Of a stretch of DNA of 23,900 nucleotides, positions 1,882 through 23,370 are shown piece by piece; positions within the stretch are counted from its first letter, which is position 1, and every line of letters begins with the position of its first letter. Source of the stretch: a virus. The notes beneath the pieces were generated by a model. That model ran no database searches. It saw nothing but the letters and a program-made list of their open reading frames with translations, and was not told the origin of the DNA. The DNA lies in the IMG/VR virus record IMGVR_UViG_3300017782_000225, positions 1-23,900 of that record. One strand, written 5' to 3'. The position numbers and the translations under genes are program-made.

Positions 1882-3825
1882 ATGGCAATGTTTAAAGCAT
1901 TCAAGCCAGCCGCAATGAATAAGATTGCACAGGCTATGGGCTATCAAGGTGACATGAACCAGTTTCAACAGTTCATTGAAGGAGACCCTGCCCGTCAACA
2001 ACAAATGAATATGTATACTAATGCTGCAAAACAAATGGCTAAAGGTGGTATGGTTAAGAAATTTGCTGTGGGCGGTACAACAACTAACCCGTCAGGCACA
2101 CAAGCTGCTACACCTACAGTAACACAGCCAACACAAGCACCTGCTGGCACACCCGGTGTAACGCAGTACAGCGTAGAGCAGATGTATACCCCCGGTGTAC
2201 CTGTAGGTGGTACTACAATCGCTGCAGAAACAGCGCAGACAGCACAACAAGACATTGCTGCTGGTACAGGTGCTATTACTGGTCAGGTGGCTGTGCCAAC
2301 AGCTACGGCTGCTACAGCACAAGCAGCACCTATTCAACAAACACAAGCTAATGTGATGCAAGCTGCACAGGCAGCACCTGCAGTAGATGCAGCTATGACT
2401 GCTACTCAAGCTGCTCAAGCTAACCCACAAGACCCACGTGCGCAGATTACTGCAGCACAGCAGACATCTTCTTCTGTAGGTAATCTACAGGCTGCACAGG
2501 GTAATGCAATCCTAATTAACAATCCAGTACAGCGTCAGATACAAACAGGTGAACTTATCACAGGCACAGGTGTTGACGCTACACTAGCTGCACAGACCGC
2601 TGCACAGACACAAGCTGCTGCTGCACAAGCTAACCCAAGCCAGCAGGCAATGGTACAAGATCAATTATCTGGCTTGATGAACCAGTTTGTTGGTGGTGCT
2701 ACACCAGCGTGGGCTGCAGGTGCTATTCGTACTGCTAATGCTACTATGGCTGCACGTGGACTAGGCGCATCTTCTCTTGCTGGTCAAGCAATTGTACAGG
2801 CAGCTATGGAATCAGCTATGCCTATTGCAATGGCAGACGCACAGACAGTAGCTAAGTTTGAATCACAGAACTTATCTAACAGGCAGCAGTCAGCAATGCT
2901 TGCTGCAGAGCAACGTGCTAAGTTTATGGGTCAGGAGTTTGACCAGACATTCCAACAGAAGGTAATGAATGCTAGTAAGATTAGTGACATTGCCAATCAA
3001 AACTTTACAGCAGAACAGCAGGTACAGCTAGAGAATAGTCGTGCTGCTAATACAATGAACCTTAACAACTTGTCTAATTCACAGGCTCTTGTAATGTCAG
3101 AAGCTGCAGCACTAGCACAGTTGGATGTATCTAATCTCAACAACCGCCAGCAGTCTGCGGTACAAAACGCACAGAACTTTTTGCAGGTTGATATGGCTAA
3201 CTTATCTAACCAGCAACAAACTGAATTGTTTAAGTCGCAACAGCGTGTACAGTCTTTGTTTACAGATCAAGCTGCTACAAATGCAGCCGCACAGTTTAAT
3301 GCCTCTAGTCAAAATCAAGTGGACCAGTTTTTTGCTAATTTAGGTTCTCAAGTATCACAGTTTAATGCTACGCAACAAAACGCACAGTCTCAGTTTAACT
3401 CAGGTCAAACTAATACAGTCGCACGTTTTAATGCTGAACTAAATAATCAACGTGACCAGTTTAATGCACAGAACCAGATGGTGATTGCGCAATCTAATGC
3501 ACAGTGGCGTAGACAAATTGCTACTGCAGACACTGCAGCAGTTAATCGTGCTAACGAACTTAACGCTAATGCTATATTGGATATTAGTAAAACAGCGTAT
3601 GATAATCTGTGGAACTACTATGCAGACTCTATGGAGTGGGCATGGGAATCTTCAGATAATGAATTAGATAGACAGGTTCAATTAGCAGTTGCTAAACTAC
3701 AGGCAGATAGCAGTGCCGATTTAGCAAACATCAAAAAAGACTACGAATCAAGTAAGTCTGTTGGTGGTTTTGTAATGGACGTACTTAAACTTGGTTCTAC
3801 AACAGGCTGGTCATTCGGATTTTAA
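1882..3825 (+). CDS. Gln/Ala/Asn-rich virion structural protein with 11-residue repeats
   Basis: A 647-residue protein without recognisable enzyme motifs. Residues 1-65 are a small helical head that includes GGMVKKFAVGG (55-65), a motif common in marine phage structural proteins. Residues 66-260 are low-complexity, rich in Ala, Gln, Thr and Pro. Residues 260-330 are Ala/Met-rich and helical. Residues 330-569 are a regular array of 11-residue units, many starting NLSN, NLNN or QFNA, which should form a long helical rod or bundle. The C-terminus is helical and Trp-rich (W577, W586, W588). The composition, position after fibre genes and repeats suggest an internal or tail-tube-associated protein; the precise place in the virion is not known. 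Translation is probably coupled to the preceding gene (stop and start adjacent). Confidence 0.8.
   Translation: MAMFKAFKPAAMNKIAQAMGYQGDMNQFQQFIEGDPARQQQMNMYTNAAKQMAKGGMVKKFAVGGTTTNPSGTQAATPTVTQPTQAPAGTPGVTQYSVEQMYTPGVPVGGTTIAAETAQTAQQDIAAGTGAITGQVAVPTATAATAQAAPIQQTQANVMQAAQAAPAVDAAMTATQAAQANPQDPRAQITAAQQTSSSVGNLQAAQGNAILINNPVQRQIQTGELITGTGVDATLAAQTAAQTQAAAAQANPSQQAMVQDQLSGLMNQFVGGATPAWAAGAIRTANATMAARGLGASSLAGQAIVQAAMESAMPIAMADAQTVAKFESQNLSNRQQSAMLAAEQRAKFMGQEFDQTFQQKVMNASKISDIANQNFTAEQQVQLENSRAANTMNLNNLSNSQALVMSEAAALAQLDVSNLNNRQQSAVQNAQNFLQVDMANLSNQQQTELFKSQQRVQSLFTDQAATNAAAQFNASSQNQVDQFFANLGSQVSQFNATQQNAQSQFNSGQTNTVARFNAELNNQRDQFNAQNQMVIAQSNAQWRRQIATADTAAVNRANELNANAILDISKTAYDNLWNYYADSMEWAWESSDNELDRQVQLAVAKLQADSSADLANIKKDYESSKSVGGFVMDVLKLGSTTGWSFGF
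2869..3588 (+). repeat. Protein-level hendecad (11-residue) repeat array
   Basis: Residues 330-569 of the 647-residue structural protein can be written as consecutive 11-residue rows: twelve rows from 330 to 461, a 9-residue row (462-470), then nine rows from 471. Position 1 is usually Asn, Gln or Glu, position 2 often Leu, Phe or Ala, position 4 often Asn or Ala, and position 10 usually Val, Met, Leu or Ile. Rows at 330, 396, 418 and 440 start NLSN or NLNN; rows at 471, 493 and 526 start QFNA. The DNA repeats are diverged, so the repeat is constrained at the protein level. Confidence 0.8.
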
Positions 3826-5778: not shown

Positions 5779-8700
5779 ATGCAGCGCAAATATTCTCAAA
5801 AAGACAACTTAACAAAAGAAGATTTGTTAAAAGACTTTGAGTTTTACGATGATGCTAAAAAATTCTTAGCAGAACGTGAAGGCAAAAAAGATTTAACAAA
5901 ACCTACAGAAGTGTACGATGCTTTTATGGAGCATATGCGCTTTCATAATGTTAATGAAGTAACTACAATACGTGACTTGGAGTATGCGCAAAACGCAAGC
6001 CAAGAAGGTAAACTGCGTTTTGCAAACTTGATTGACGCTTACGACAGACTAGACGGTGAAGTATCTTTAACTTCTGCACTTGACTACGCAGAGGGTATTG
6101 CTACTGCACCGTCTACTTATTTGGGGATTATATCAGGCGGCACAGGTAAAGCTGCAGCATATGGTGCTACACAAGCCACTAAGATGGGTGTGCGTAAAAT
6201 ACTAGCAGAAGCTGCGAAGCGTTCAGCCAAAGCTGCAGCGGTAGAAGGTGCTATTGGCGCAGGTCAAGGTGCAGTACAAGAAGAAGTACGTGTCGAAACA
6301 GGTATGCAAGAAAAAATTAATACAGATAAAGTTGTGCAATCTGGTTTAATTGCGGGTGGCACAGGTGGACTACTTAATTTACCTATACAAGCATTAAATG
6401 TAAAACGTGCCAATAAAGCAAATGAAATGCTGGCTCAAGCAGAATTTAGTCGTGCTAGAAAAGCTAACATAGCTGCGGAAAAAACAAAAGAAACAAAAAA
6501 GAATACTTCTAAAGCTGAATTTAAAAAAGCCACAGAAGTTTTGGATGCACTGCCAGAAGAAAAAGTGAAAGCAGGTAGACGATTAAAACAAATGTCATCA
6601 AAAGCAGACTCAACAGAAGTTGGTCTACCTTTAGAAGTAAAAGAAAACATTGCAGCAGCAGCTATCCGCATACGTGATAAACTTAACCTAGAACCTAATG
6701 AACGAATTACCAGTGGCATTTTTCGTGCTATGCAAGATGGTAAAATTACCGATGAAGTAGATGGTGTAAAAGAAATACTAGAAGAACATAACTTGTCATA
6801 TGATGAGTTTTCATTGCTGTATTTGGCTGAAGTATCTGATGCTGGTAAAACGCTGCAGCAAGTAGGCGCAGTGAAAAAAACTATGCAAGGCACAGCGCAA
6901 GCAGCGCAGAAAGAAGTAGAGAAGTTAGTAGCGGCTGTTGATGGTCTAAACAAAGGCGGTAAATCAGGTATTAATGCAGATCAAGCTAAAGATGTAATAC
7001 AAAGTACAAACAAAGCATATCAAGTTGCACAAGATATAGATAAACTACGTTTAGGTGTGATGACTTCACAGCCAGCAACGACTATGCGTAACAACCTAAA
7101 CGGCGGTTTTCGTGTAGCTATTGATGCTACTACGCGAACATTTGATAATGTATTTAATCTACGTAATCCTATGGATGGCACGTTTGATGTAGCTAAGTAT
7201 ATGCTCAATCCCTATGAAGCAAATGTTGTACAAAAATTATTCAAAGAAACTTTTCCAGAGCAAGGTGCTAAACTGTTTCGTGAGGCAGCAGACATTGAAG
7301 CAGCTAAGTCGGGTGAGACTGTACTTGCTACACTAGGAAGAAAAGTAAACATACTAAATACTGCATCTGATAACTTTTTTAAGAGAGCAGTCATTGCCGC
7401 TTCTTTGCGCCGTAGAGTATCAGATGCTAACTTACCTATGTCAGATAGGTTAAAACAGCTAATGCTACGTAACAGAATGTCGCGTCAGATGAGTGCAGAG
7501 CAAGTTGACGAAGTGTTGTCGAAAGCAAGTAAAGATGACATAGCTAAGTTAATGGACGAATACGGCGATTTAAATTCAAAGAAAACATTACAGCTAGAAG
7601 ATTTGATTGAAACAAACTCATTAGCACAAATGCCGGATGAAATGTTAAAAGATTCAATTGCAGACGCTTATGAGTTTGTATATCAAGCACCAATGACAGG
7701 TAAGAATATGCCAAGTGCATTTGCACGTGGTGTAATTAAAGCGCATCATGCTGCGCCTTTCCTTATCTCTAGTTTCATGCCATTCCCAAGATTTGTAGCT
7801 AATCAATTAAAATTTGTGTATGAACATATGCCACTTGTAGGTATGATGCATCTAGATAGATTGGGTGCAAAAACTGCAAAGGCTCCGGGTTATTACAAAG
7901 ATATGTTTGCCAAGCAAGCAACGGGTGCTGTTATGCTTACCGCTGCATATAACTGGCGGCTAAAACAAGGGGAAACAGAACACTGGTATGAGTTTAAAGA
8001 TAACAACGGCAATGTAATAGATGGCAGACCTGTGTATGGTCCCTTTGCTCCATTTATGCTACTTGCAGACACTATATACAGATATCAGAATGACCAGATG
8101 CCAGCACGTCCTGTACAATATTATGGTAGAGCAATAGGTGAATCCCTGTTAGGTTCAACCCTTAGAACAGGTTTAGGTTTATACACGCTAGATAAATTTG
8201 CAAGTGATCTAGGTTCTGGTGAGTTAGAGAAAACAGGCGGTGAGTTTGTTGGTAATCTAGTAAATACTTTCTTAATACCTGCATCTGCAGTACGCGATTT
8301 ATACGCACAATTTGATAGAGATGCTAGGGGTATACCTGAAACTAGAACGGGTGAATATAATTTTTATGACGTTTTGTACACACGTGGGACACGCTCATTA
8401 CCTAAAAACTTTGTTGGGGATGCAACAGAAGGTTATGCTAAATATTTTGATGAAGCGCAAAGAGCAAGATCACCTTTCCAAACAGGCGAATTAACTCAAG
8501 TCAACCCTCTTGAAAAACAAATGTTTGGTTTATCTAAACGTCCAGCTAAAAATGTATTACAGAATGAAATGGGCAGATTAAATCTGACACCCTATGACTT
8601 GTACAGACGTGACCCAAATGACCAGCTTGATTTTTATATACGTCAAGAACTTTCTAAAGAGGGAAGTCCGTATAATCTAAACGAAGTCATGGAAGGTGTG

Positions 8701-9036
8701 ATTAAATCTGAAAGATATCAGTCTATGAACATAGATGAAAAACGTGCATTGCTTAATGATAGGGCTAAAGCACTTATTACAGATGTTCGTAACTCTGCCA
8801 GAGAACGCATAGAAAGAGAGGCAGGTTCTACAGATGCCAAATATACATCTCTTGACAGAATGAATTGGGAGAAAATGGATAGACTAACCAAGAACAGAAT
8901 TGACAGAGAATATAAAGAAGACTTTGGTGGCGAATCTGTGTCTTCTGACAGAGATAAAACTATTACGTTACCGGATGGAAGTAGAATGAACGTCTTACAG
9001 TGGGCAATATTTAGATCGAAGAGTAAATCAGAATAA
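5779..9036 (+). CDS. Large internal virion (ejection-type) protein
   Basis: The largest protein of the window, 1085 residues. It begins with a charged helical region (1-100), then two Gly/Ala-rich stretches (about 104-168 and 184-206: GIISGGTGKAAAYGA, SGLIAGGTGGLLNLP) that could insert into or lie along a membrane. Long charged helical stretches follow (215-400). An aromatic/hydrophobic segment (near 655-700, AAPFLISSFMPFPRF) may be another membrane-active part, and the C-terminal third is mixed and polar. No lysozyme or transglycosylase motif was found, unlike T7 gp16. Size, helical content, hydrophobic patches and position in the late operon suggest an ejection protein that helps DNA cross the envelope; this is inference. 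The TAA stop shares its last base with the next ATG. Confidence 0.7.
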   Translation: MQRKYSQKDNLTKEDLLKDFEFYDDAKKFLAEREGKKDLTKPTEVYDAFMEHMRFHNVNEVTTIRDLEYAQNASQEGKLRFANLIDAYDRLDGEVSLTSALDYAEGIATAPSTYLGIISGGTGKAAAYGATQATKMGVRKILAEAAKRSAKAAAVEGAIGAGQGAVQEEVRVETGMQEKINTDKVVQSGLIAGGTGGLLNLPIQALNVKRANKANEMLAQAEFSRARKANIAAEKTKETKKNTSKAEFKKATEVLDALPEEKVKAGRRLKQMSSKADSTEVGLPLEVKENIAAAAIRIRDKLNLEPNERITSGIFRAMQDGKITDEVDGVKEILEEHNLSYDEFSLLYLAEVSDAGKTLQQVGAVKKTMQGTAQAAQKEVEKLVAAVDGLNKGGKSGINADQAKDVIQSTNKAYQVAQDIDKLRLGVMTSQPATTMRNNLNGGFRVAIDATTRTFDNVFNLRNPMDGTFDVAKYMLNPYEANVVQKLFKETFPEQGAKLFREAADIEAAKSGETVLATLGRKVNILNTASDNFFKRAVIAASLRRRVSDANLPMSDRLKQLMLRNRMSRQMSAEQVDEVLSKASKDDIAKLMDEYGDLNSKKTLQLEDLIETNSLAQMPDEMLKDSIADAYEFVYQAPMTGKNMPSAFARGVIKAHHAAPFLISSFMPFPRFVANQLKFVYEHMPLVGMMHLDRLGAKTAKAPGYYKDMFAKQATGAVMLTAAYNWRLKQGETEHWYEFKDNNGNVIDGRPVYGPFAPFMLLADTIYRYQNDQMPARPVQYYGRAIGESLLGSTLRTGLGLYTLDKFASDLGSGELEKTGGEFVGNLVNTFLIPASAVRDLYAQFDRDARGIPETRTGEYNFYDVLYTRGTRSLPKNFVGDATEGYAKYFDEAQRARSPFQTGELTQVNPLEKQMFGLSKRPAKNVLQNEMGRLNLTPYDLYRRDPNDQLDFYIRQELSKEGSPYNLNEVMEGVIKSERYQSMNIDEKRALLNDRAKALITDVRNSARERIEREAGSTDAKYTSLDRMNWEKMDRLTKNRIDREYKEDFGGESVSSDRDKTITLPDGSRMNVLQWAIFRSKSKSE

Positions 9037-11153
9037 TGGATAGAAAAGAATATACTTTAGCTTCGCAGTTAGTTGATGCAGACGAGATGCAGTCACCTGA
9101 TGACATGATGTTGTCTGGTCCATCAACAGATTTCAGCTACATGTCACGTAAGGAAACACCTGCCCAAGCTGCTTTACGTAAGGCTGAAGCAGGTAAGCTG
9201 GCTACAGGTCTGGCTGACATGACTGCGGATGTGACACCCTTTGTGGGTGGGGCTAAAGCTGCCACTGAATTGCCTGATGATTTGTCCTACGCCAAGGCAC
9301 TTGTAGCAGAAGGCTACGATGAATCTGACATAAAGAAGATGGGTCTTGGTGGTGCTTACACTGCTCTGTCTATACTTGGTTTATTACCCGGAGTAAAGAT
9401 CGGTACTGATGTAGTCAAGGCTGGTATCAAGTCTTCTGTAAAGGACAGTGTTAAGCCTTCTGTAAAAGATCAGATGGAGAACTTGATTACACCTAAACGT
9501 GCGGAGCAGCTAGAGAAAGCTAAGTCGCTACCTGCAGAAGAACGTAGACGCTACCTAAGAGAAGCTAATAGACCTGCCCCTAAAGTATTTCACGGCGCAA
9601 GAAACATAAGTAAAAAGTCAGATAATTTTTCCTCAATGATGAAAATGGAAGAGTTTCAATACAAGTATATGAAAAACGCAAAAACACTAGCGACTACAAA
9701 TGAATTAAATTTTAAAGCTGCATTTGATAATAAAAAAGAAATGCCCTTAGAAGATTTATTACGTAGTGATAGCAGTTTTGGGGCTATGATTCCTGAAGAA
9801 ATAGCAGAATATAAAGAAGGAGTATTGCCTACATTTGAGCCGTATCCAGCGGATATAAGATTTAGTCCAAGAGTTGTGGACACTAAATCTGCTAATAACG
9901 AGGCGGGTTTTGATGTTATCTATGATGAAAATTACGTAGACCTTATAGACGATACTGATGCTGTAATAGGGGAAGTACCTTTGCGAAACGGTTCCGTAAA
10001 TAGAGCAGATTTAGAATCTGCATTAGAGCGTATCAATAAAGATACGCATAGCAAAGTTAAAGATGTATATGAAACAATAAAATTTGAAAGTAAAGGCGAT
10101 CAACTAGAAAAAGAAGGCTTTGCTCCTTATGAAGCAGCTGGACCACTTTCAGGTGGAAGTAGGCGCACAAAGTTTATGGGAGATTCCTCTGGTTTTGGGA
10201 GCGATAGAACTGGTCAGCATATGGAACTGAGGGGCATAAAAGCCTTGTCTACTTCACGTGATCCTCTTGTGTCAATGAAAGATGCATTTGGTAACAGGGT
10301 ACTTGCCAATTTAGTTTACGCCGACTTACCTAAAGCTGAACAAAGAAATCTATCTGCCGAAGAATACCAATCATTAATAAGACGTGGTGATCCAGAAGGG
10401 GCGGCACTACGAGAAGAAATACTTGGCGGTGAAGGAATACCTTTATCTTTTCCTAAAAGCGCACACGATGAAGCAGAGGTAGCACTGACAAAACCGCAAG
10501 AACTTGATGTAAAAAGATTATCTAGGGATGATAAAAGACTAAACCCCAGCGAGAATATTGAAAAGCTACCCACTAAAGGCACAGGTAAACTACCTCTTGC
10601 TGAACGAGTAGCTGAAGGTCAAAGACTTGTAAACAGACTGTTCTCTCAAGCTGAAAAGTTAAATAAAATTAATCGACATGAGTACCGTAGTGACGCTACG
10701 TTTACTCAGGACTATTACAGCACCCTTAGAAATATGTTTAAGGATGCTCAATCTCTAGGTAAGTATACTGAACAATACGGTGCTAGAGGTACATACGATT
10801 CATTCTTAGAAACAGTAGCGCAAAACTCTAGCTTCAAGGCATCTCTTGATAAAGCAGTAAAACGTATGCCAGATGGCGAAAAGAAAAGAAACATGCAGGT
10901 GTTACATGAAGTTTTAGATACTATGGCATTCGCACCACAAGATGCAACAAAAAGAGCAAGAAGAGAAACTAAAGGAATGAGTGACAAAGACCTAAACAAG
11001 CTTCTATTTGACAGACCTACTATTAAAGGCACTCGCCAGCCAGCCTTAACTATAAAGGAATCACTAGAAGATTTAGGGTACAATGACTATAAACGCATGG
11101 CATTTCTCATAACGCAAAAACTAAATCGTGGTGGACTTATGGTTAAAAAATAA
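9036..11153 (+). CDS. Virion protein with possible ADP-ribosyltransferase-like module
   Basis: A 705-residue protein. Residues 1-180 resemble internal virion proteins (helical, a Gly-rich hydrophobic stretch at 103-128). Residues 183-495 carry motifs like those of ADP-ribosyltransferases, in the right order: KVFHGARN (184-190), ALSTSRDP (403-410) followed by a hydrophobic strand, and HDEAEVALTKPQELDV (477-492) with an ExE at 479-481. ART enzymes use an Arg or His, an STS or Tyr, and a Glu at these places. The spacing between the first two motifs (about 220 residues) is longer than usual, and this interval is AT-rich. Residues 510-705 are helical and basic, ending in LNRGGLMVKK. If active, it could be injected and modify a host protein, as T4 Alt does; alternatively the fold may be catalytically dead. 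It starts inside the previous stop (TAATG). Confidence 0.7.
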   Translation: MDRKEYTLASQLVDADEMQSPDDMMLSGPSTDFSYMSRKETPAQAALRKAEAGKLATGLADMTADVTPFVGGAKAATELPDDLSYAKALVAEGYDESDIKKMGLGGAYTALSILGLLPGVKIGTDVVKAGIKSSVKDSVKPSVKDQMENLITPKRAEQLEKAKSLPAEERRRYLREANRPAPKVFHGARNISKKSDNFSSMMKMEEFQYKYMKNAKTLATTNELNFKAAFDNKKEMPLEDLLRSDSSFGAMIPEEIAEYKEGVLPTFEPYPADIRFSPRVVDTKSANNEAGFDVIYDENYVDLIDDTDAVIGEVPLRNGSVNRADLESALERINKDTHSKVKDVYETIKFESKGDQLEKEGFAPYEAAGPLSGGSRRTKFMGDSSGFGSDRTGQHMELRGIKALSTSRDPLVSMKDAFGNRVLANLVYADLPKAEQRNLSAEEYQSLIRRGDPEGAALREEILGGEGIPLSFPKSAHDEAEVALTKPQELDVKRLSRDDKRLNPSENIEKLPTKGTGKLPLAERVAEGQRLVNRLFSQAEKLNKINRHEYRSDATFTQDYYSTLRNMFKDAQSLGKYTEQYGARGTYDSFLETVAQNSSFKASLDKAVKRMPDGEKKRNMQVLHEVLDTMAFAPQDATKRARRETKGMSDKDLNKLLFDRPTIKGTRQPALTIKESLEDLGYNDYKRMAFLITQKLNRGGLMVKK

Positions 11154-11517: not shown

Positions 11518-11724
11518 TTAGCTTCTTGCTCTAGCTTCTTCATTACGTTGTACCTTTTGTAAGTTCACATGGTAGGCAGTATCCCAACCTCGCTGCCATT
11601 CCCTTGCTTGCATTGTATTAGGGTCAATGGGGCAGCGTAGCTTGCCCTTCCTAAACGCTTCCTGCCCCCACTCAAACTGAATCCTTAGTGGGGCATCGTA
11701 CTTACTAAGACCATTACGCCGCAT
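11518..11724 (-). CDS. Rmf/CrpP-like small protein
   Basis: A 68-residue protein whose central part matches the ribosome modulation factor (Rmf/CrpP) pattern: an Ala and Gly before the core (A23, G27), then CP (31-32), R41, W43, GW (46-47) and A50, that is CP....(x)R.W..GW..A. Bacterial Rmf dimerises ribosomes into inactive 100S particles in stationary phase; related short proteins of plasmids and phages have other or unknown roles. The flanks are basic (MRRNG, RARS). GGAG lies 7 bases before the ATG, inside the end of the upstream gene, and the genes overlap by 11 bases. Possible roles are redirecting host ribosomes or binding nucleic acid; that is inference, and the family assignment rests on a short motif. 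Confidence 0.75.
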   Translation of the reverse strand: MRRNGLSKYDAPLRIQFEWGQEAFRKGKLRCPIDPNTMQAREWQRGWDTAYHVNLQKVQRNEEARARS

Positions 11725-12247
11725 TCTGCATCTCCTTAATCTGGTAATTGAAAAGTTTGATTGCTGCTACTTTATCAATCTTAAACCACTCTCCTCTACG
11801 TTCATCGGCAAAGTGTTCAAAGATTTTGTGCATCTCACGTTCCTTTGTGTGTCTGTCTTTTGTTGGCATCTTAGCTGCCACTTTGTAGTCACGAAATGGT
11901 GATGATGTTTGATAGCCGTTAAGTCGATCATCAGAATTAACAGCCTTCCCTACCTTAACCCAATCAGGCCAAGCTGTATTGACAATGATGTACACTTCAC
12001 CCTCGTTAACACTTTCAATCTTGTTATGTGACCATGCGTCATCTAGTGATTTGTATCTACCCGGCTTGTGCAGGGGGTGTGATGAAGGAATGTATTTACC
12101 GTTTACAAACATGCGATTAGTATTCTTTGCAGCATGTGTTGACACACGTTGGCGGTATCCGCTAGGGCTATAGTACCACCAATCACCGTCTTCAAACACA
12201 GCTTCAGACTTTATGTAATTTTTATTTACCTTTAGTAAGTCCAACAT
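11714..12247 (-). CDS. T5orf172/MUG113-type GIY-YIG superfamily protein
   Basis: A 177-residue protein. The N-terminal 80 residues contain aromatic and basic residues (DGDWWYYSPSGYRQ), perhaps a DNA-binding or recognition part. Residues 83-156 match the T5orf172 branch of the GIY-YIG nuclease superfamily: GEVYIIV (first half-motif), VKVGKA (97-102, second half-motif), R108 with a following Tyr, Glu residues at 136 and 138 with His at 140, and the terminal GEWF. The family is widespread in phages; a nuclease role is likely but cleavage targets are unknown. I chose the ATG at 12247 because AAGGAG lies 7 bases upstream; an in-frame ATG at 12289 is longer but lacks this. It overlaps its upstream neighbour by 26 bases. 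A free-standing homing nuclease is one alternative. Confidence 0.8.
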   Translation of the reverse strand: MLDLLKVNKNYIKSEAVFEDGDWWYYSPSGYRQRVSTHAAKNTNRMFVNGKYIPSSHPLHKPGRYKSLDDAWSHNKIESVNEGEVYIIVNTAWPDWVKVGKAVNSDDRLNGYQTSSPFRDYKVAAKMPTKDRHTKEREMHKIFEHFADERRGEWFKIDKVAAIKLFNYQIKEMQNAA

Positions 12248-12470
12248 TCTTATTCTCCTTATCTTCTGTTTTAGGAAAGTATTTAACAAGCATCTCTAGC
12301 TTGTCGTGGTAGTTAGCAATCTCTTCTAATTCCGTTTCAATTGCCTCTTGAATATCTTGATGCTCACCAATGCCAACGGGATGCGTCAGCAGGATTTCAA
12401 TGTTGGCCTTATGTTTATTCATATGACCTATTAGATGCGAAGTCTGCGCATCAATCAGCATGTTTCTCAT
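12222..12470 (-). CDS. Small conserved phage protein
   Basis: An 82-residue protein, mostly helical and acidic in the middle, with a conserved-looking core THPVGIGEHQDIQEAIE (29-45) and EIANYHDKLEML (50-61), a pattern I recognise from small proteins of marine phages near nucleotide metabolism genes. No catalytic or binding motif is known to me. Two in-frame ATGs (12470 and 12461) both sit downstream of a tandem AAGGAGAAGGAG, so either may be used. It overlaps the 40-residue ORF upstream and the GIY-YIG gene downstream, as in a tightly coupled operon. Confidence 0.72.
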   Translation of the reverse strand: MRNMLIDAQTSHLIGHMNKHKANIEILLTHPVGIGEHQDIQEAIETELEEIANYHDKLEMLVKYFPKTEDKENKNVGLTKGK

Positions 12471-12583: not shown

Positions 12584-13147
12584 CTAAGCTGCTGCGATGT
12601 CAACTATTTCACAGACACCAGCAGTACAGGCTAACTCACGCCCACCTGATGTGGTATCTTCCTTTTCAAAGTCACTCAGCTTAGTCCAGTTAACCTTCTT
12701 AGGCATCTTCTTTTGGAACTCAGTGTATTGTTCCGCATCAATGTCCTGATAAGGTGCTTGCTGGTATGTATGTTCACTGAATGGTAGGAAGCTAATGCCA
12801 CTCACCTCATCAAAGTGTTCATATACCCACGCACCTACATCCATCCACTCATTCTCTTTGACTGAGATAGTGACTGAAGGCTTGTGTTCACACCAATGAC
12901 GCTGATAGGTAAGCCACAGTTCAAGCTGTTCAATGGCAGTCATACCAGTACGTGTTACCGCACCTTTGGGTGACTTCATTGGAAAGCTAAACACTGTAGT
13001 GCTATCAGGCTTCATTACGTCAGGCTCCGCTGGGATACCTTCAGCAATCAAGAACTGCGTCAGTGGGTCTTTGTTATCGCCACGTACTGTACGAATGTAG
13101 TACGGATTGTGACGTGCGTGAATACCGCTGGCTGCATCAGTAAGCTG
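12584..13147 (-). pseudogene. nrdJ: Class II ribonucleotide reductase, C-terminal part after an in-frame stop
   Basis: The frame that continues directly after the TAA at 13148-13150 encodes the expected C-terminal part of the adenosylcobalamin-dependent reductase: QLTDAASGIHARHNPYYI and IRTVRGDNKDPLTQF, then KPSVTISVKENEW, and a C-terminus with two cysteines in ACTAGVCEI, matching the CxxxxC redox pair that re-reduces the active site in monomeric class II enzymes. No ATG or GTG in this frame lies between the stop and the TTG at 13051; the first ATG comes later still, and none has a ribosome binding site. Restart is therefore unlikely, and the part is expressed only if the stop is read through, is a sequencing error, or is otherwise bypassed. 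All other conserved features are intact, so decay, if real, is recent. Confidence 0.8.
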
Positions 13148-14515
13148 TTACACAGTACCACTAGGCTTGACACAAGTGACAGCCGTAGACTGTGGGATTT
13201 TAAGCTGCTTAGACATAGCTTCGTTAACAATCACTGCCTCTGCACGTAAGATTTCAAGTGCAGTCTCTAGCTTACCACCAGAAGTAGCAGTCAAAGAATT
13301 GTCCATGATGCCTGTCAGTGACACGCCAAGCAACCGTTCTTCTTCAGTATTCTTCTGCCAAATCTTACGCAGATACTTGAAGTTAGTTAGTGTCGCTTGG
13401 AATGTACCCAAGATTGTAGCCAACCGTACCTTCTCTTTTAGCGTAGCAAGAGTGTCTGACTCACGTACTACTACCTCAGACAAGTTACAGAACTGATATG
13501 GACGCAAGATAATTTCACTACAAGGGTTGCAACCGAAATCATGTTCTGTCTCACGTCTGCCATTCTTAGCTGCTTGCTTCTTAGCTGACTGGCGATTGAA
13601 GATACCACGCTCACCTGACTTGCTGTCGTACAAAGACAACCACTCACGCATGAATGTACCCATTTCAGGCTTAGTCTTGTATGCCACAGAGTTATTAGCC
13701 AACGCACGTTGACCCTCATTCTCCCACCACTGACCTGACTTGGCATGTGCCATCTGGTCATCATTAAGATTAGACAATGAAATCAATGCACTACGGCGTA
13801 CACCACCGACAACTACAACCTCACCAATCTTACACATGATGTCGTGACATTCGATTGGATACAGCCTACGTCCAGCAGCACCCTTGAACTTTTGAATACA
13901 GAACTCAAACAGTTCTACAAGAGGCTGTGGACCTGATGCACGACCACCAAATGTCTTTAGCCGTGCGCCAGCAGGACGTACTTCGCTGACATCGAACTTA
14001 GGTATTTGTCCACTGTACAACATAGCAATCAGTTCTTTCAGTGACTTAGCCCAACCCGGACGTGAATCACCAACTTTAATTACTGTATCTGTATTATGGA
14101 ACTCTTCGCTAACCATCGGTAGCTTCTCAATGCAGTGACGCTCAACGCTGAAGCCAACGCCAGTGCCGCACATAAGAATGTACATAGACTCATCAAAGGC
14201 ACGAGGGCTATCTACAGGCACGTAAGAACAGTTATATCCACCTACGTGGCAGCGGTCTAGTGCTGGGCCAGCAGTCATCAATGCCCTCATAGAAGGCATG
14301 ATAGACTGGTTGAGTACAGCTTCTTCCAGTTCACCTCTTAGTGTATCTGGTAGCTTATAGCCATTGTTAGAAAGCAAATGGCTAGACATATAATCAAAGT
14401 ATCTGGTGACAGTTTCACCCCATGTCTCCCTTCGTTGTTCGTCTTCTTTCCACCTTGCATAGCGTGAAAGTGCTATGAAGTTTTGATAGTCTGTTGGTAG
14501 TGTATTACTGATCAT
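13148..14515 (-). CDS. nrdJ: Class II (B12-dependent) ribonucleoside-triphosphate reductase, catalytic part, truncated by TAA
   Basis: This 455-residue part makes deoxynucleotides from ribonucleotides for phage DNA synthesis, with adenosylcobalamin as the radical source. It resembles the monomeric Lactobacillus leichmannii-type reductase. Catalytic residues are visible with the right spacing: first active-site Cys at 96 (GGYNCSY), N330-x-C332-x-E334 (GCNPCSEI) and C343 (QFCNL), 11 residues after C332 as in that enzyme. GGVRRSA (237-243) is also present. Translation ends at TCVKPSGTV, where relatives continue SQL; the TAA falls in the Ser codon position and the frame continues cleanly downstream. 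Without the C-terminal redox cysteines the product would probably turn over poorly. GGAG lies 7 bases before the ATG, inside the end of the 53-residue gene. Confidence 0.88.
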   Translation of the reverse strand: MISNTLPTDYQNFIALSRYARWKEDEQRRETWGETVTRYFDYMSSHLLSNNGYKLPDTLRGELEEAVLNQSIMPSMRALMTAGPALDRCHVGGYNCSYVPVDSPRAFDESMYILMCGTGVGFSVERHCIEKLPMVSEEFHNTDTVIKVGDSRPGWAKSLKELIAMLYSGQIPKFDVSEVRPAGARLKTFGGRASGPQPLVELFEFCIQKFKGAAGRRLYPIECHDIMCKIGEVVVVGGVRRSALISLSNLNDDQMAHAKSGQWWENEGQRALANNSVAYKTKPEMGTFMREWLSLYDSKSGERGIFNRQSAKKQAAKNGRRETEHDFGCNPCSEIILRPYQFCNLSEVVVRESDTLATLKEKVRLATILGTFQATLTNFKYLRKIWQKNTEEERLLGVSLTGIMDNSLTATSGGKLETALEILRAEAVIVNEAMSKQLKIPQSTAVTCVKPSGTV

Positions 14516-17581: not shown

Positions 17582-19624
17582 TCATGCTACGTCTTTAACG
17601 TCAAGCCAATTCGGTCCGATTTTTGCCTCTAAAAGTAAAGGCACATTGAACTCTATACCCCATCTAAGGGTAATAAGTTCTAGTAGTTTGTCATTAGTAT
17701 TCTGTATGACGTTGATTACTTGTGACTCTTCGTCAGGATGAATATCAATAACAATACTGTCGTGAACAGAGTTCACTATACATGATTGCATACCCTTTAG
17801 CAACCCCTCTATATACAATAAAGCAATAGGAACAATGTCTGCTGTTGCAAAGGACTGCACAGGGTAGTTTTTGATCTGTGTAAAGTGTGACACACGCCCA
17901 CTAGCTTTACGCACCACATCAGGGAACGAAAACTCACGACCACTAGGCGTGGTTATTTTTTGTGTTTCTATAGCTTCTTTAGCCAGTCGGGAATGCCAAG
18001 CTGCCACCCCTTGGTATTTGCTGTTGAAGTGTTCATAGTACGCTGCTTCCGCTTTTGTTCTACCGAAGCCTGTCGCGCCGTAGAGTGGCGCAAACGTATG
18101 CGCTTTCGCATCCTGCCTACTCGTAGGTTGACCAGCATCGGTAATAACTTTAGCGGTGTATGCATGTACATCAAATCCAGTAGATACTTCTTCAATTGCT
18201 ACCTCGTCTTGTGATAGGTAGGCTGCAGCACGGAACTCCAACTGTGCGAAGTCGGCTTCCATTACCTTACCACCTGCAAATCGTGACACAAATACTTTCT
18301 TGACAGGGAACGTACCGCCACGTGGCATGTTCTGCATATTAGGATTAGCCCCACTAAAACGACCAGTGGATGTGCGATGCTGTAATAGACTTACATGAAG
18401 CTTACCGTCCTGCTTAGTATAGTTACGTATGCCCTCAACAAAAGAAGACAGGTATGTATCTACGGCACTAAGTCGGCGCACCTTGTACAAAAAGTCAACG
18501 GCCTCATCCATACCTTTAGTCTTGGCACCAGCCTCTAGCAATTCAAGGTTTTGCTTACTGGTACTAAAACCGTTTGCACTCAACCACTTAGATGATGGTG
18601 GCTTAAACTTGAAGCCAGCCAAAGTATCAGACGGGATAAACAAAAACCCTTCCGTGTTACAGTCAGCACATCTGCTAGGTTTAGCAAACGGCTCACCATT
18701 CTTTTTGGTCTTGCGTATATAACCTGTGCCATTACAAGTGTGGCACTGTTGTGCTACAGTTTTATACAGACGTTCTGTACCGTAAGATACCATGCTGCGA
18801 AACTCTACGTCATCCATATACGGATCAATCTTACTTGCCCAATCCGCTTTATCAATAACCTTCCTACCATATATAACCCAGCCTAGTTGTTCTGGACTGT
18901 TAAGATTGATAGGAGTATCGCCCATTACATTGCGTACATGAGACTGCAGTGCCTTCTCCAACTCGTCACGTTCCTGTTCAAACTCGCTGCGTACCTCATC
19001 TAACTTAGATAAGTCAACCGCAAAGCCACGCTGATAGATACGTGCAAGTGTAACACATACTTGATTGGTCAGGTCTACTGTGCCACGCAAACCGCTATCA
19101 GTGGGCGTATTCAAACGATACATCAACTTGTCAGACAGTTGCTGCGTAGCGCGAAGGTCAGCAGATAGATACTCAGACAATTCATCGTGAGGTATGTCAC
19201 GTGTGCTGTAGCCCTTTCTAAAATACTCTTTTAGTGTATCCTGTTTCTTAGTCTCCAACTCGTATCGTTCTGCACAAGCCTCAAGAGACAACGGTTCTTT
19301 GTTACCACGCTGCAGTACATATTCAGCAAGCATTGTATCAAAGACAGGGCCATCATAGGTAAAGCCAGACTCCCATAGCCACAGTAAATCGTATGCAGCA
19401 TTGTGACAGATAAGCACAGTAGCCTGATCAAGCCACTTCTGAAGCAGGTTGTGTCCATGATACGTAGGCTCACGCTCATTGTGGTCAAAGGTAATCAAGT
19501 CTTCTTGCCCTTGGTCAGTCAACACACCAACCATAGTCAATGAGTTAGTAGGCTCAAAAGGGTCAAGATGCATCTTACCATCACGCTGCGTTGTTGTGTT
19601 TTCTACATCAAGTGTTAGCTTCAT
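17582..19624 (-). CDS. polA: Family A DNA polymerase with exonuclease and DnaJ-type zinc insertion
   Basis: A 680-residue replicative polymerase. The 3'-5' exonuclease domain has D6-x-E8 (LDVENT), N75/D79 (HNAAYD) and Y152...D156 (YLSAD). Polymerase motifs: A, D458 to R465 (DFAQLEFR); B, R503, K507, F511, Y515-G516 (KAHTFAPLYG); C, H621-D622 (VHDSIV). Between exonuclease and palm lies a zinc-binding insertion with CHTCNGTG (294-301) and CADC (319-322), like half of a DnaJ cysteine-rich domain. This architecture is known from HMO-2011-type phages and marks the group. The residue equivalent to E. coli Phe762 is Phe (F511). It overlaps the helicase gene by 4 bases (ATGA). The insertion's role is unknown; it may bind DNA or a partner. 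Confidence 0.95.
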   Translation of the reverse strand: MKLTLDVENTTTQRDGKMHLDPFEPTNSLTMVGVLTDQGQEDLITFDHNEREPTYHGHNLLQKWLDQATVLICHNAAYDLLWLWESGFTYDGPVFDTMLAEYVLQRGNKEPLSLEACAERYELETKKQDTLKEYFRKGYSTRDIPHDELSEYLSADLRATQQLSDKLMYRLNTPTDSGLRGTVDLTNQVCVTLARIYQRGFAVDLSKLDEVRSEFEQERDELEKALQSHVRNVMGDTPINLNSPEQLGWVIYGRKVIDKADWASKIDPYMDDVEFRSMVSYGTERLYKTVAQQCHTCNGTGYIRKTKKNGEPFAKPSRCADCNTEGFLFIPSDTLAGFKFKPPSSKWLSANGFSTSKQNLELLEAGAKTKGMDEAVDFLYKVRRLSAVDTYLSSFVEGIRNYTKQDGKLHVSLLQHRTSTGRFSGANPNMQNMPRGGTFPVKKVFVSRFAGGKVMEADFAQLEFRAAAYLSQDEVAIEEVSTGFDVHAYTAKVITDAGQPTSRQDAKAHTFAPLYGATGFGRTKAEAAYYEHFNSKYQGVAAWHSRLAKEAIETQKITTPSGREFSFPDVVRKASGRVSHFTQIKNYPVQSFATADIVPIALLYIEGLLKGMQSCIVNSVHDSIVIDIHPDEESQVINVIQNTNDKLLELITLRWGIEFNVPLLLEAKIGPNWLDVKDVA

Positions 19625-21617: not shown

Positions 21618-22514
21618 TTAGATGCTTTTACCATGTATTTTTCTAGCTGTCAATGCATTATTTGCACTGGCATACGTATTTTTCATGTAAGGCTTGACAG
21701 ATTGTGGGTTAGCATGTCCTGTAACCGACATAATTTGTGCCATACCGACACCTGCCTCTACCATTTCTGTTGTGCCTGTCCTACGCAAGTCAGATAAACG
21801 TAGTTCTTTGGGTAATCCCGCAGCATCCATCACCTCACGTGCGTATTTAGGCAGTTTATGTAGCGTATAGGGTCTGTATTCACCCGCAATAGGATTAGGG
21901 CGAGGTGCGACATATTGCTGAAAGCCAAAGTCTTGTTCTTGTTGTACTAGCATATCTAACAAATCATCTTCGATAGGCAGATGTACCTCTGCTTTACGTT
22001 TAGACTGCTCAATAAACACACGAGCGTTGTCGAAGTCGATGGCATCCCATGATAGTAGTCGCATGTCACCAATCCTTTGACACCAAGCATATGCCATGTG
22101 TGCAATCAAACCAATGTTCCTAGTCTTAAAATCGCCGTATGCTGTGTCTAAGAACATCTGTATATGTTCCCTAGCCCATACTGTCTTGCGCCTCTCAGCG
22201 GCTCTCCTACGCACCGTAGAGAAAGGATTTATGTGTATGTGTTCCATACGCACAGCGTAATTGAAAAGTATACGAGCAACAGCCATGATGTGATTGGCAA
22301 AAGGTATACCTCTTTCACACCAAATATCATACGCAATCTTAGCACGTTTACTTGACACCTGACGATACTCTATGTTACCCAATACTTTATCATCTATATT
22401 TGTGTCCATCATAACACCTAGAAAGTATTGATACTGTGCCTTAGTGTCATCACGTAAGTTCTTGTAATCAATAGAAGAATAATAATTCTGAGATAGTACG
22501 TTTACTGTTGTCAT
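21618..22514 (-). CDS. int: Tyrosine recombinase / phage integrase
   Basis: A 298-residue site-specific recombinase that would integrate phage DNA into the host chromosome. The N-terminal part (1-110) is a SAM-like core-binding domain. In the catalytic domain, counted from the chosen start: R147 (CQRIGDM), Lys near 172-174 (SKRKAEVHLP), R244 in SDLRRT, H267 (TGH) and the nucleophile Y276 (VKPY), 9 residues after the His as usual. The HxxR box has Ser (S241) instead of His; this position varies in the family. The ATG at 22514 follows the DraG stop by one base; an in-frame TTG at 22544 is less likely. No repressor or attachment site could be identified nearby. Related integrases occur in some HMO-2011-like and other marine phages. 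Confidence 0.9.
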   Translation of the reverse strand: MTTVNVLSQNYYSSIDYKNLRDDTKAQYQYFLGVMMDTNIDDKVLGNIEYRQVSSKRAKIAYDIWCERGIPFANHIMAVARILFNYAVRMEHIHINPFSTVRRRAAERRKTVWAREHIQMFLDTAYGDFKTRNIGLIAHMAYAWCQRIGDMRLLSWDAIDFDNARVFIEQSKRKAEVHLPIEDDLLDMLVQQEQDFGFQQYVAPRPNPIAGEYRPYTLHKLPKYAREVMDAAGLPKELRLSDLRRTGTTEMVEAGVGMAQIMSVTGHANPQSVKPYMKNTYASANNALTARKIHGKSI

Positions 22515-22515
22515 G

Positions 22516-23370
22516 TCACTTGTTTCCCATGTAATATAAGTCAATTGCCAACTGCTGTAATTTATCGTACCACATTAGTTCTTGTGTAAACTTTTTAGGT
22601 ATATTATATATACCATAATGTGCGCCAGCTATCATGCCAGCTACTGCGCCTGTCGTGTCACTGTCGTGACCCCGATTGACTGCAGCGATTACGCAGTCCT
22701 CAAAATTGTTTGTTGTCTGAAATGCCCACATAGCTGCCTCATATGTTTCTTTTACATACCCACCAGACATAACATTTTTTCTATCTATATCAATAGGATG
22801 CCTGAATGATGTGTAGTTTTGTAGTGGGCTACCCGCATACAATTCCTCTGCAAACATTCTGCTATACAACACACACATTTCAGTGCCGTGGGTAAGCAGT
22901 GTCTGCTGCGTAGCAAGCTGAACCAAATGCTCCCTAGACTTAGCACATAAAACAATAGGTGCAATACGCATCAGCGCACCATTACCAGAGTTTTTAGGGT
23001 CAGTTGAGCCAGCGTAGGGTCTTGATGGGTCATCTGCATATTTACGCAAGGCATTTACAGTGGTAGTGCCTATGTCAAAACAAACGCCGCGAGGAATAAA
23101 CGCACCATCTAACCACCATTTGCAAAAGTTTTGCATGATTACGTCTGCATCAAACGCCCCTTCTGCGCGAATGGCACTACCCATAGCAAAAGCCATAGCT
23201 GTATCATCTGTCCACTCACCCTTCTCTACGTTCCATATACCACCTGTGTGATATTTAGTTATATAATCATCGGGTTCTCTCGCGTCTTGAAACTCTAGGG
23301 GTGCGCCAAGCGCATCACCCACAGCAAGTCCGACTAACATACCCATTGCATTGTCTACTGTACCTTGCAT
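22516..23370 (-). CDS. ADP-ribosylglycohydrolase (DraG/ARH family)
   Basis: A 284-residue complete enzyme of the family that removes ADP-ribose from proteins or nucleic acids. Family marks: GLAVGDALGAP (14-24), the Mg-binding TDDT at 54-57 (GEWTDDTAMA), GTTT (101-104), SGNGALMRIAP (128-138) and the second metal site NRGHDSDTTGAVAG (232-245; D236, D238, T239). Its length is normal. AAGGGG lies 7 bases before the ATG. It is transcribed with the integrase and early replication genes. In a phage, it could reverse modification by host ADP-ribosylating toxins such as DarT-type defence, or undo modification by the phage's own ART-like virion protein; both are inference. Regulation of host nitrogenase, the classical DraG role, is unlikely. 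Confidence 0.92.
   Translation of the reverse strand: MQGTVDNAMGMLVGLAVGDALGAPLEFQDAREPDDYITKYHTGGIWNVEKGEWTDDTAMAFAMGSAIRAEGAFDADVIMQNFCKWWLDGAFIPRGVCFDIGTTTVNALRKYADDPSRPYAGSTDPKNSGNGALMRIAPIVLCAKSREHLVQLATQQTLLTHGTEMCVLYSRMFAEELYAGSPLQNYTSFRHPIDIDRKNVMSGGYVKETYEAAMWAFQTTNNFEDCVIAAVNRGHDSDTTGAVAGMIAGAHYGIYNIPKKFTQELMWYDKLQQLAIDLYYMGNK

Follow-up and report, generated by a model that had tools for sequence, protein, structure and literature searches.

The stretch of DNA analysed here, referred to as the window, comprises positions 1 to 23,900 of the virus record IMGVR_UViG_3300017782_000225. Its plus-strand tail/structural operon, which also encodes tail fibre proteins, closes with the gene for P0001, a 705-aa protein (9036..11153, plus strand, by open reading frame (ORF) call) with a predicted ADP-ribosyltransferase (ART) fold. 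P0001 lies directly after P0003, a presumed ejection or internal virion protein of 1085 aa (5779..9036, plus strand), and the ATG of P0001 and the stop codon of P0003 overlap as TAATG. A DraG-type ADP-ribosylglycohydrolase, P0002, is encoded elsewhere in the window. The sequence-only reading of this DNA had proposed an ART module in a virion protein, and this proposal is supported by the predicted ART-type fold, the conservation of motif residues and the linkage of the protein to the ejection module. We consider that P0001 is probably an injected mono-ADP-ribosyltransferase representing a new phage family.

Three ART-type motifs were found in P0001 in the order previously described, with the lysine of motif I displaced by one residue. 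Motif I, KVFHG with H186, corresponds to residues 183–187 (9582..9596, plus strand) and forms a strand in the model (model residues 40–44). Motif II, GQHMELRGIKALSTSRDP (10212..10265, plus strand), contains H395, E397, L398, S405, S407 and D409, with ALSTSRDP at residues 403–410 (nt 10242–10265), and motif III, PKSAHDEAEVAL (10452..10487, plus strand), contains H477, E479 and E481, with HDEAEVAL at residues 477–484 (nt 10464–10487); the columns of both are invariant or near-invariant. Conservation was assessed in 29 distinct family members that span the motif region, gathered via P0003 relatives and by alignment search; close relatives of P0001 are few. S405, E479 and E481 were kept in 29 of 29, and S407 in 28 (Ala in L006). 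H186, the first-strand His in FHG that had been singled out from the letters, was likewise kept in 28, the exception being the lineage of L018, L057, L058 and L059, and the Gly following it is replaced by Ala in L033. Other invariant columns were H395, E397, L398 and D409. Loss of the motifs among homologues would speak against an ART, and across these relatives the motifs are conserved. A loose regular expression (H or R, then an S/T-rich segment, then E.E, in that order) matched 145 of 20,000 shuffles of P0001 (<1%) and had no other match among the 25 ORFs of at least 120 aa in the window, while a strict pattern, derived post hoc from the P0001 family, matched none of 20,000 shuffles. The pattern result alone is modest evidence for ART motifs; their conservation across relatives is strong sequence evidence.

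The long spacing between motifs I and II, already noted by the sequence-only reading, proved to be real and is due to an insertion that is absent from L020, L051 and L018. In these three relatives the core is compact, with approximately 32 residues from the His to STS and approximately 75 from STS to ExE, and the version in the window therefore carries an insertion of roughly 160–200 residues. We placed it at approximately residues 196–355 (9621..10100, plus strand) on the basis of the model, the sequence identities and its absence in relatives. The insertion is predicted to consist of long helices and antiparallel beta strands, with good local confidence (predicted local distance difference test (pLDDT) value of ~90 over much of the stretch in the AlphaFold2 window model). 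It is also the most variable part of P0001, with 14–23% identity in seven of nine pairs, compared with 52–61% around motif III in the same pairs.

Two structures were predicted using AlphaFold2, namely, the window domain with 20 homologues (pLDDT 78.9; predicted template modelling score (pTM) 0.56) and the compact L020 domain (pLDDT 63.4; pTM 0.52). The compact model was built from alignment A7, since motif I fragments that had been entered separately were misaligned in A6. The two models are not fully independent because their alignments are partly in common. When the Foldseek candidates of the window model were compared by VIA-align, the first 26 rows were all ARTs with Z of 4.3–6.3, including ExoA, cholix, tankyrase, PARP2, ParT, MbcT and RES, and the next row, an unrelated protein, had a Z of 3.3; for the compact model, Z reached 7.4 and 50 of 50 among the matches listed were ART-fold proteins, with the proviso that a Z below 8 can reflect a common arrangement. 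The best Foldseek match of the compact model was the RES-type protein 6gw6 (E=3.8e-3, probability 1.00), and all 50 of the 50 matches listed were again ARTs. The best BFVD match of the window model was a protein named for the large polyvalent protein associated domain (E=3.1e-4). Judging from the aligned starts in both models, and assuming no intervening gap, model residue 43 (H186 or the L020 His) falls on the catalytic His of several H-Y-E enzymes, which we take to be H440 in ExoA, H460 in cholix, H1184 in tankyrase-1, H1031 in tankyrase-2 and H21 in diphtheria toxin. These predictions agree with the fold expected from the motifs: both structures match ART folds better than unrelated ones, and by prediction the P0001 domain has the split beta-sandwich of ARTs. 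Alternatively, the motifs and the fold match could be coincidental and P0001 an unrelated virion protein, as the lack of sequence-profile support in any library and the moderate model confidence would allow. This is very improbable in our view, given that ART folds were retrieved with both models, which differ in length and composition, and that the conserved His lies at the catalytic His register.

The predicted active site of P0001 is unusual in that its triad of His, Ser-x-Ser and Glu-x-Glu is neither the classical H-Y-E nor R-S-E. The strand-1 His (H186) is that of the H-Y-E type (PARP/diphtheria), with Ser405-x-Ser407 instead of the motif II Tyr, while the S-T-S and (E/Q)-x-E elements of the R-S-E type (T4 Alt, C3 and VIP2) are present as the conserved LSTS and EAE, with His186 instead of the strand-1 Arg. 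Because it combines the His of one type with the Ser-x-Ser/Glu-x-Glu of the other, P0001 fits neither type as defined. Its best structural matches, the H-Y-E ARTs diphtheria toxin, exotoxin A, cholix, tankyrase and PARP2, have the strand-1 His register in common with it, but carry Tyr at motif II and a single Glu, whereas P0001 has ExE without the Tyr and belongs to a phage virion-type protein. The polyvalent-protein ARTs of phages (Tox-ART-HYD2; Iyer et al. 2017, PMC5512222), e.g. of Roseovarius Plymouth podovirus 1, resemble P0001 in that they have a strand-1 His and are part of a large phage protein that is linked to the virion and predicted to enter the host by injection. These ARTs are defined by an H, Y, D active site, in which strand 2 supplies the Tyr and strand 5 the Asp (PMC5512222), whereas P0001 has H, S and E, arranged as Ser-x-Ser and Glu-x-Glu, as well as a large insertion; sequence similarity between the two was undetectable in the libraries searched. 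The comparison with T4 Alt drawn in the sequence-only reading holds for the concept, i.e. an ART that travels in the head and is injected along with the DNA, but not for the family, since Alt is an R-S-E enzyme (PMC5512222) of the Alt/VIP2 clade from a myovirus, whereas P0001 has His for Arg in strand 1 and matches no Alt-family profile. The injected phage ART is already known as a concept, and what would be new is the active-site variant and the family of P0001. Separately, motifs II and III of L011 are separated by a further insertion (L011:7642-8178) that resembles a second, R-S-E-like ART (VYRVG ... SSFT ... DEAEVII); this insert had no database match, and hhalign with it gave no useful similarity.

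An NAD+-consuming enzyme, such as an NADase or a RES/ParT-like protein, which depletes NAD+ or yields ADP-ribose derivatives with no macromolecule modification, would account for the RES-type protein as the best Foldseek match of the compact model and for ParT, MbcT and RES among the VIA matches. We regard such an activity as quite unlikely, because ExE together with STS is more transferase-like, NAD+ loss offers little gain to a replicating phage that is probably capable of lysogeny, as judged from its integrase, and the DraG-type partner better suits protein modification.

The link of P0001 to the virion comes from its operon position and from gene fusions. The homologues of P0003 and P0001 form one ORF in L020, L051 and L018, and in L025 and L036 the P0001 homologue is joined to a different large protein, which has glycine-rich parts. 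The Roseobacter phages CRP-13 and CRP-2 have a P0003 homologue as their last structural-side gene, and in neither is it followed by a P0001 gene; a few genes upstream of this homologue, CRP-13 has a putative lytic transglycosylase/internal-virion-type gene. From this context we infer that P0001 is located in the virion, packaged and injected. In its N-terminal region, P0001 has a glycine-rich hydrophobic stretch, GLGGAYTALSILGLLPGVKIGTDVV (9342..9428, plus strand), which is kept in alignment A1 and is possibly a membrane hairpin, and its C-terminal region (10716..11150, plus strand), with YTEQYGARGTYDSFLE and the terminal NRGGLM, has invariant columns in the same alignment. A further structural likeness is provided by the cyanophage A4 pre-ejectosome protein 9k3a_B, which was matched by the compact model (VIA Z 6.7, root-mean-square deviation 3.6, 114 aligned) over a wide range, 470–1603, in which the residue pairing is not visible. 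The sequence of 9k3a_B is that of A4L_27 and contains LYHGT ... GTYFSKS. Like the P0001 family, A4L_27 is an ejection-linked protein of a short-tailed phage with an ART fold match, but its ART motif is of the H-Y type and lies inside one 1717-aa protein, compared with H/S-x-S/E-x-E in P0001. Two additional features of these proteins were observed. Short glycine motifs (MAKGGMVKKFAVGG and NRGGLM) recur where presumed virion proteins of the same phage group end or join (window 1882–3825 and 9036–11153), and in L036 (L036:1842-6197) the large protein fused to the ART-fold protein has a weakly Hint-like end (Pfam Vint, E=0.073, falling short of the cut-off).

Several observations weigh against the reading of P0001 as an injected ART. 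Pfam, PHROGs and PDB sequence searches with P0001, its domain and the alignments gave no match. No similarity to the cyanophage A4 ART domain was detected by hhalign. Both structural models are of moderate confidence, their VIA Z values are below 8, and Foldseek against PDB with the window model gave no credible match, probably because the insertion dominates. Motif II contains no Tyr, and the L018 lineage has FFGG at motif I, with Phe for the strand-1 His, so that part of the family may lack activity or rely on a different residue. Finally, the virion link is one of genomic context and gene fusion. As for the distribution of the family, tblastn with four family types found nothing in isolated phages, and no relative was found in bacterial and archaeal genomes; none of the sequence libraries searched recognises the P0001 family.

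Some of these observations would suit an ART fold that is real but non-catalytic, serving the ejection complex in a structural or docking role. Both the strand-1 His and the motif III His (PKNMFAEAE) are gone from the L018 lineage, the pre-ejectosome protein of cyanophage A4 matches the same fold, and the motif II Tyr of the H-Y-E enzymes is missing. Such a role nevertheless appears unlikely, since all 29 sequences keep S405, E479 and E481, whereas the insertion drops to 14–23% identity in distant relatives, and an intact Ser and ExE pair is unnecessary for a purely structural role.

For P0001 as an injected ART, we propose the following course of events. P0001 would be packed with the ejection protein P0003 and would exit the head together with it, upon which the N-terminal hydrophobic region would contact the membrane. 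The ART core, with its inserted variable domain, would then enter the cytoplasm and bind NAD+, and H186, S405/S407 and E481 would direct the transfer of ADP-ribose onto a host protein early in infection. By analogy with Arg-specific ARTs, the E-x-E motif suggests arginine as the acceptor. In some phages, the ADP-ribose mark may be taken off again at a later stage by the DraG-type hydrolase.

This hydrolase, P0002 (22516..23370, minus strand), is an ADP-ribosylglycohydrolase of the DraG/ARH type, as indicated by a match to PF03747 (ADP_ribosyl_GH, E=2.3e-61) and by the metal-binding motifs TDDT and GHDSDT. A tyrosine integrase (21618..22544, minus strand; PF00589, E=5.3e-17) overlaps the end of its gene, which lies 11.4 kb from that of P0001. 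Fourteen ART-bearing records were tested, 12 of which reach the integrase locus; DraG was present in five of these 12 (the window and the records of L016, L030, L032 and L044), in each case approximately 11–12 kb downstream of the ART gene. The remaining seven integrase-reaching records had no DraG match, with little sequence left at the site in G013. A check for DraG without an ART gene was limited by the DraG contigs, which were too short to span to the ART locus. P0002 may possibly be the reversing partner of P0001 and form a functional pair with it. The fuller proposal, in which a hybrid His/Ser-x-Ser/Glu-x-Glu ART injected via the ejection complex and, in some phages, a matching DraG form a reversible cycle, switched on at entry and off by early gene expression, is tentative and somewhat doubtful. 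The chances appear evenly balanced that the hydrolase instead has no connection with the ART and serves lysogeny or counter-defence, an explanation that concerns the pairing only. It would fit the overlap or abutment of DraG with the integrase start in the records examined and the seven integrase-bearing ART records without DraG, whereas the occurrence of ART and hydrolase together in five phages fits a reversible mark, and the role of DraG in the HMO-2011 group is otherwise called unclear in passages of PMC9038755.

Those passages report a DraG-like gene in five metagenomic HMO-2011-type genomes, the same phage group as the window, and treat the hydrolase only; P0001 provides a concrete candidate partner for it. 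HMO-2011-type phages are described there as dominant and widespread in the ocean. ARTs are reported to be rare in podoviruses, 3% of which encode one (PMC9503650), and such counts may be low because the P0001 family was missed by all libraries searched. Together with cyanophage A4, P0001 hints that ART-fold domains occur in the ejection complexes of short-tailed phages.

The assignment of the window to the HMO-2011 type is based on its DNA polymerase A gene (17582–19624, minus strand), which carries the hallmark DnaJ CXXCXGXG insertion, with PF00684 at residues 289–327 between PF01612 and PF00476; in passages of PMC9038755, the defining trait of the type is a family A DNA polymerase in which a partial DnaJ CXXCXGXG domain separates the exonuclease part from the polymerase part. 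An adenosylcobalamin-type ribonucleotide reductase is encoded in two ORFs (13148–14515 and 12584–13051, minus strand) and in L002 as one 643-aa ORF, the split being either a frameshift or an assembly error. A protein with a T5orf172/MUG113 (GIY-YIG-like) domain is encoded at 11714–12289 (minus strand), near the MazG gene.
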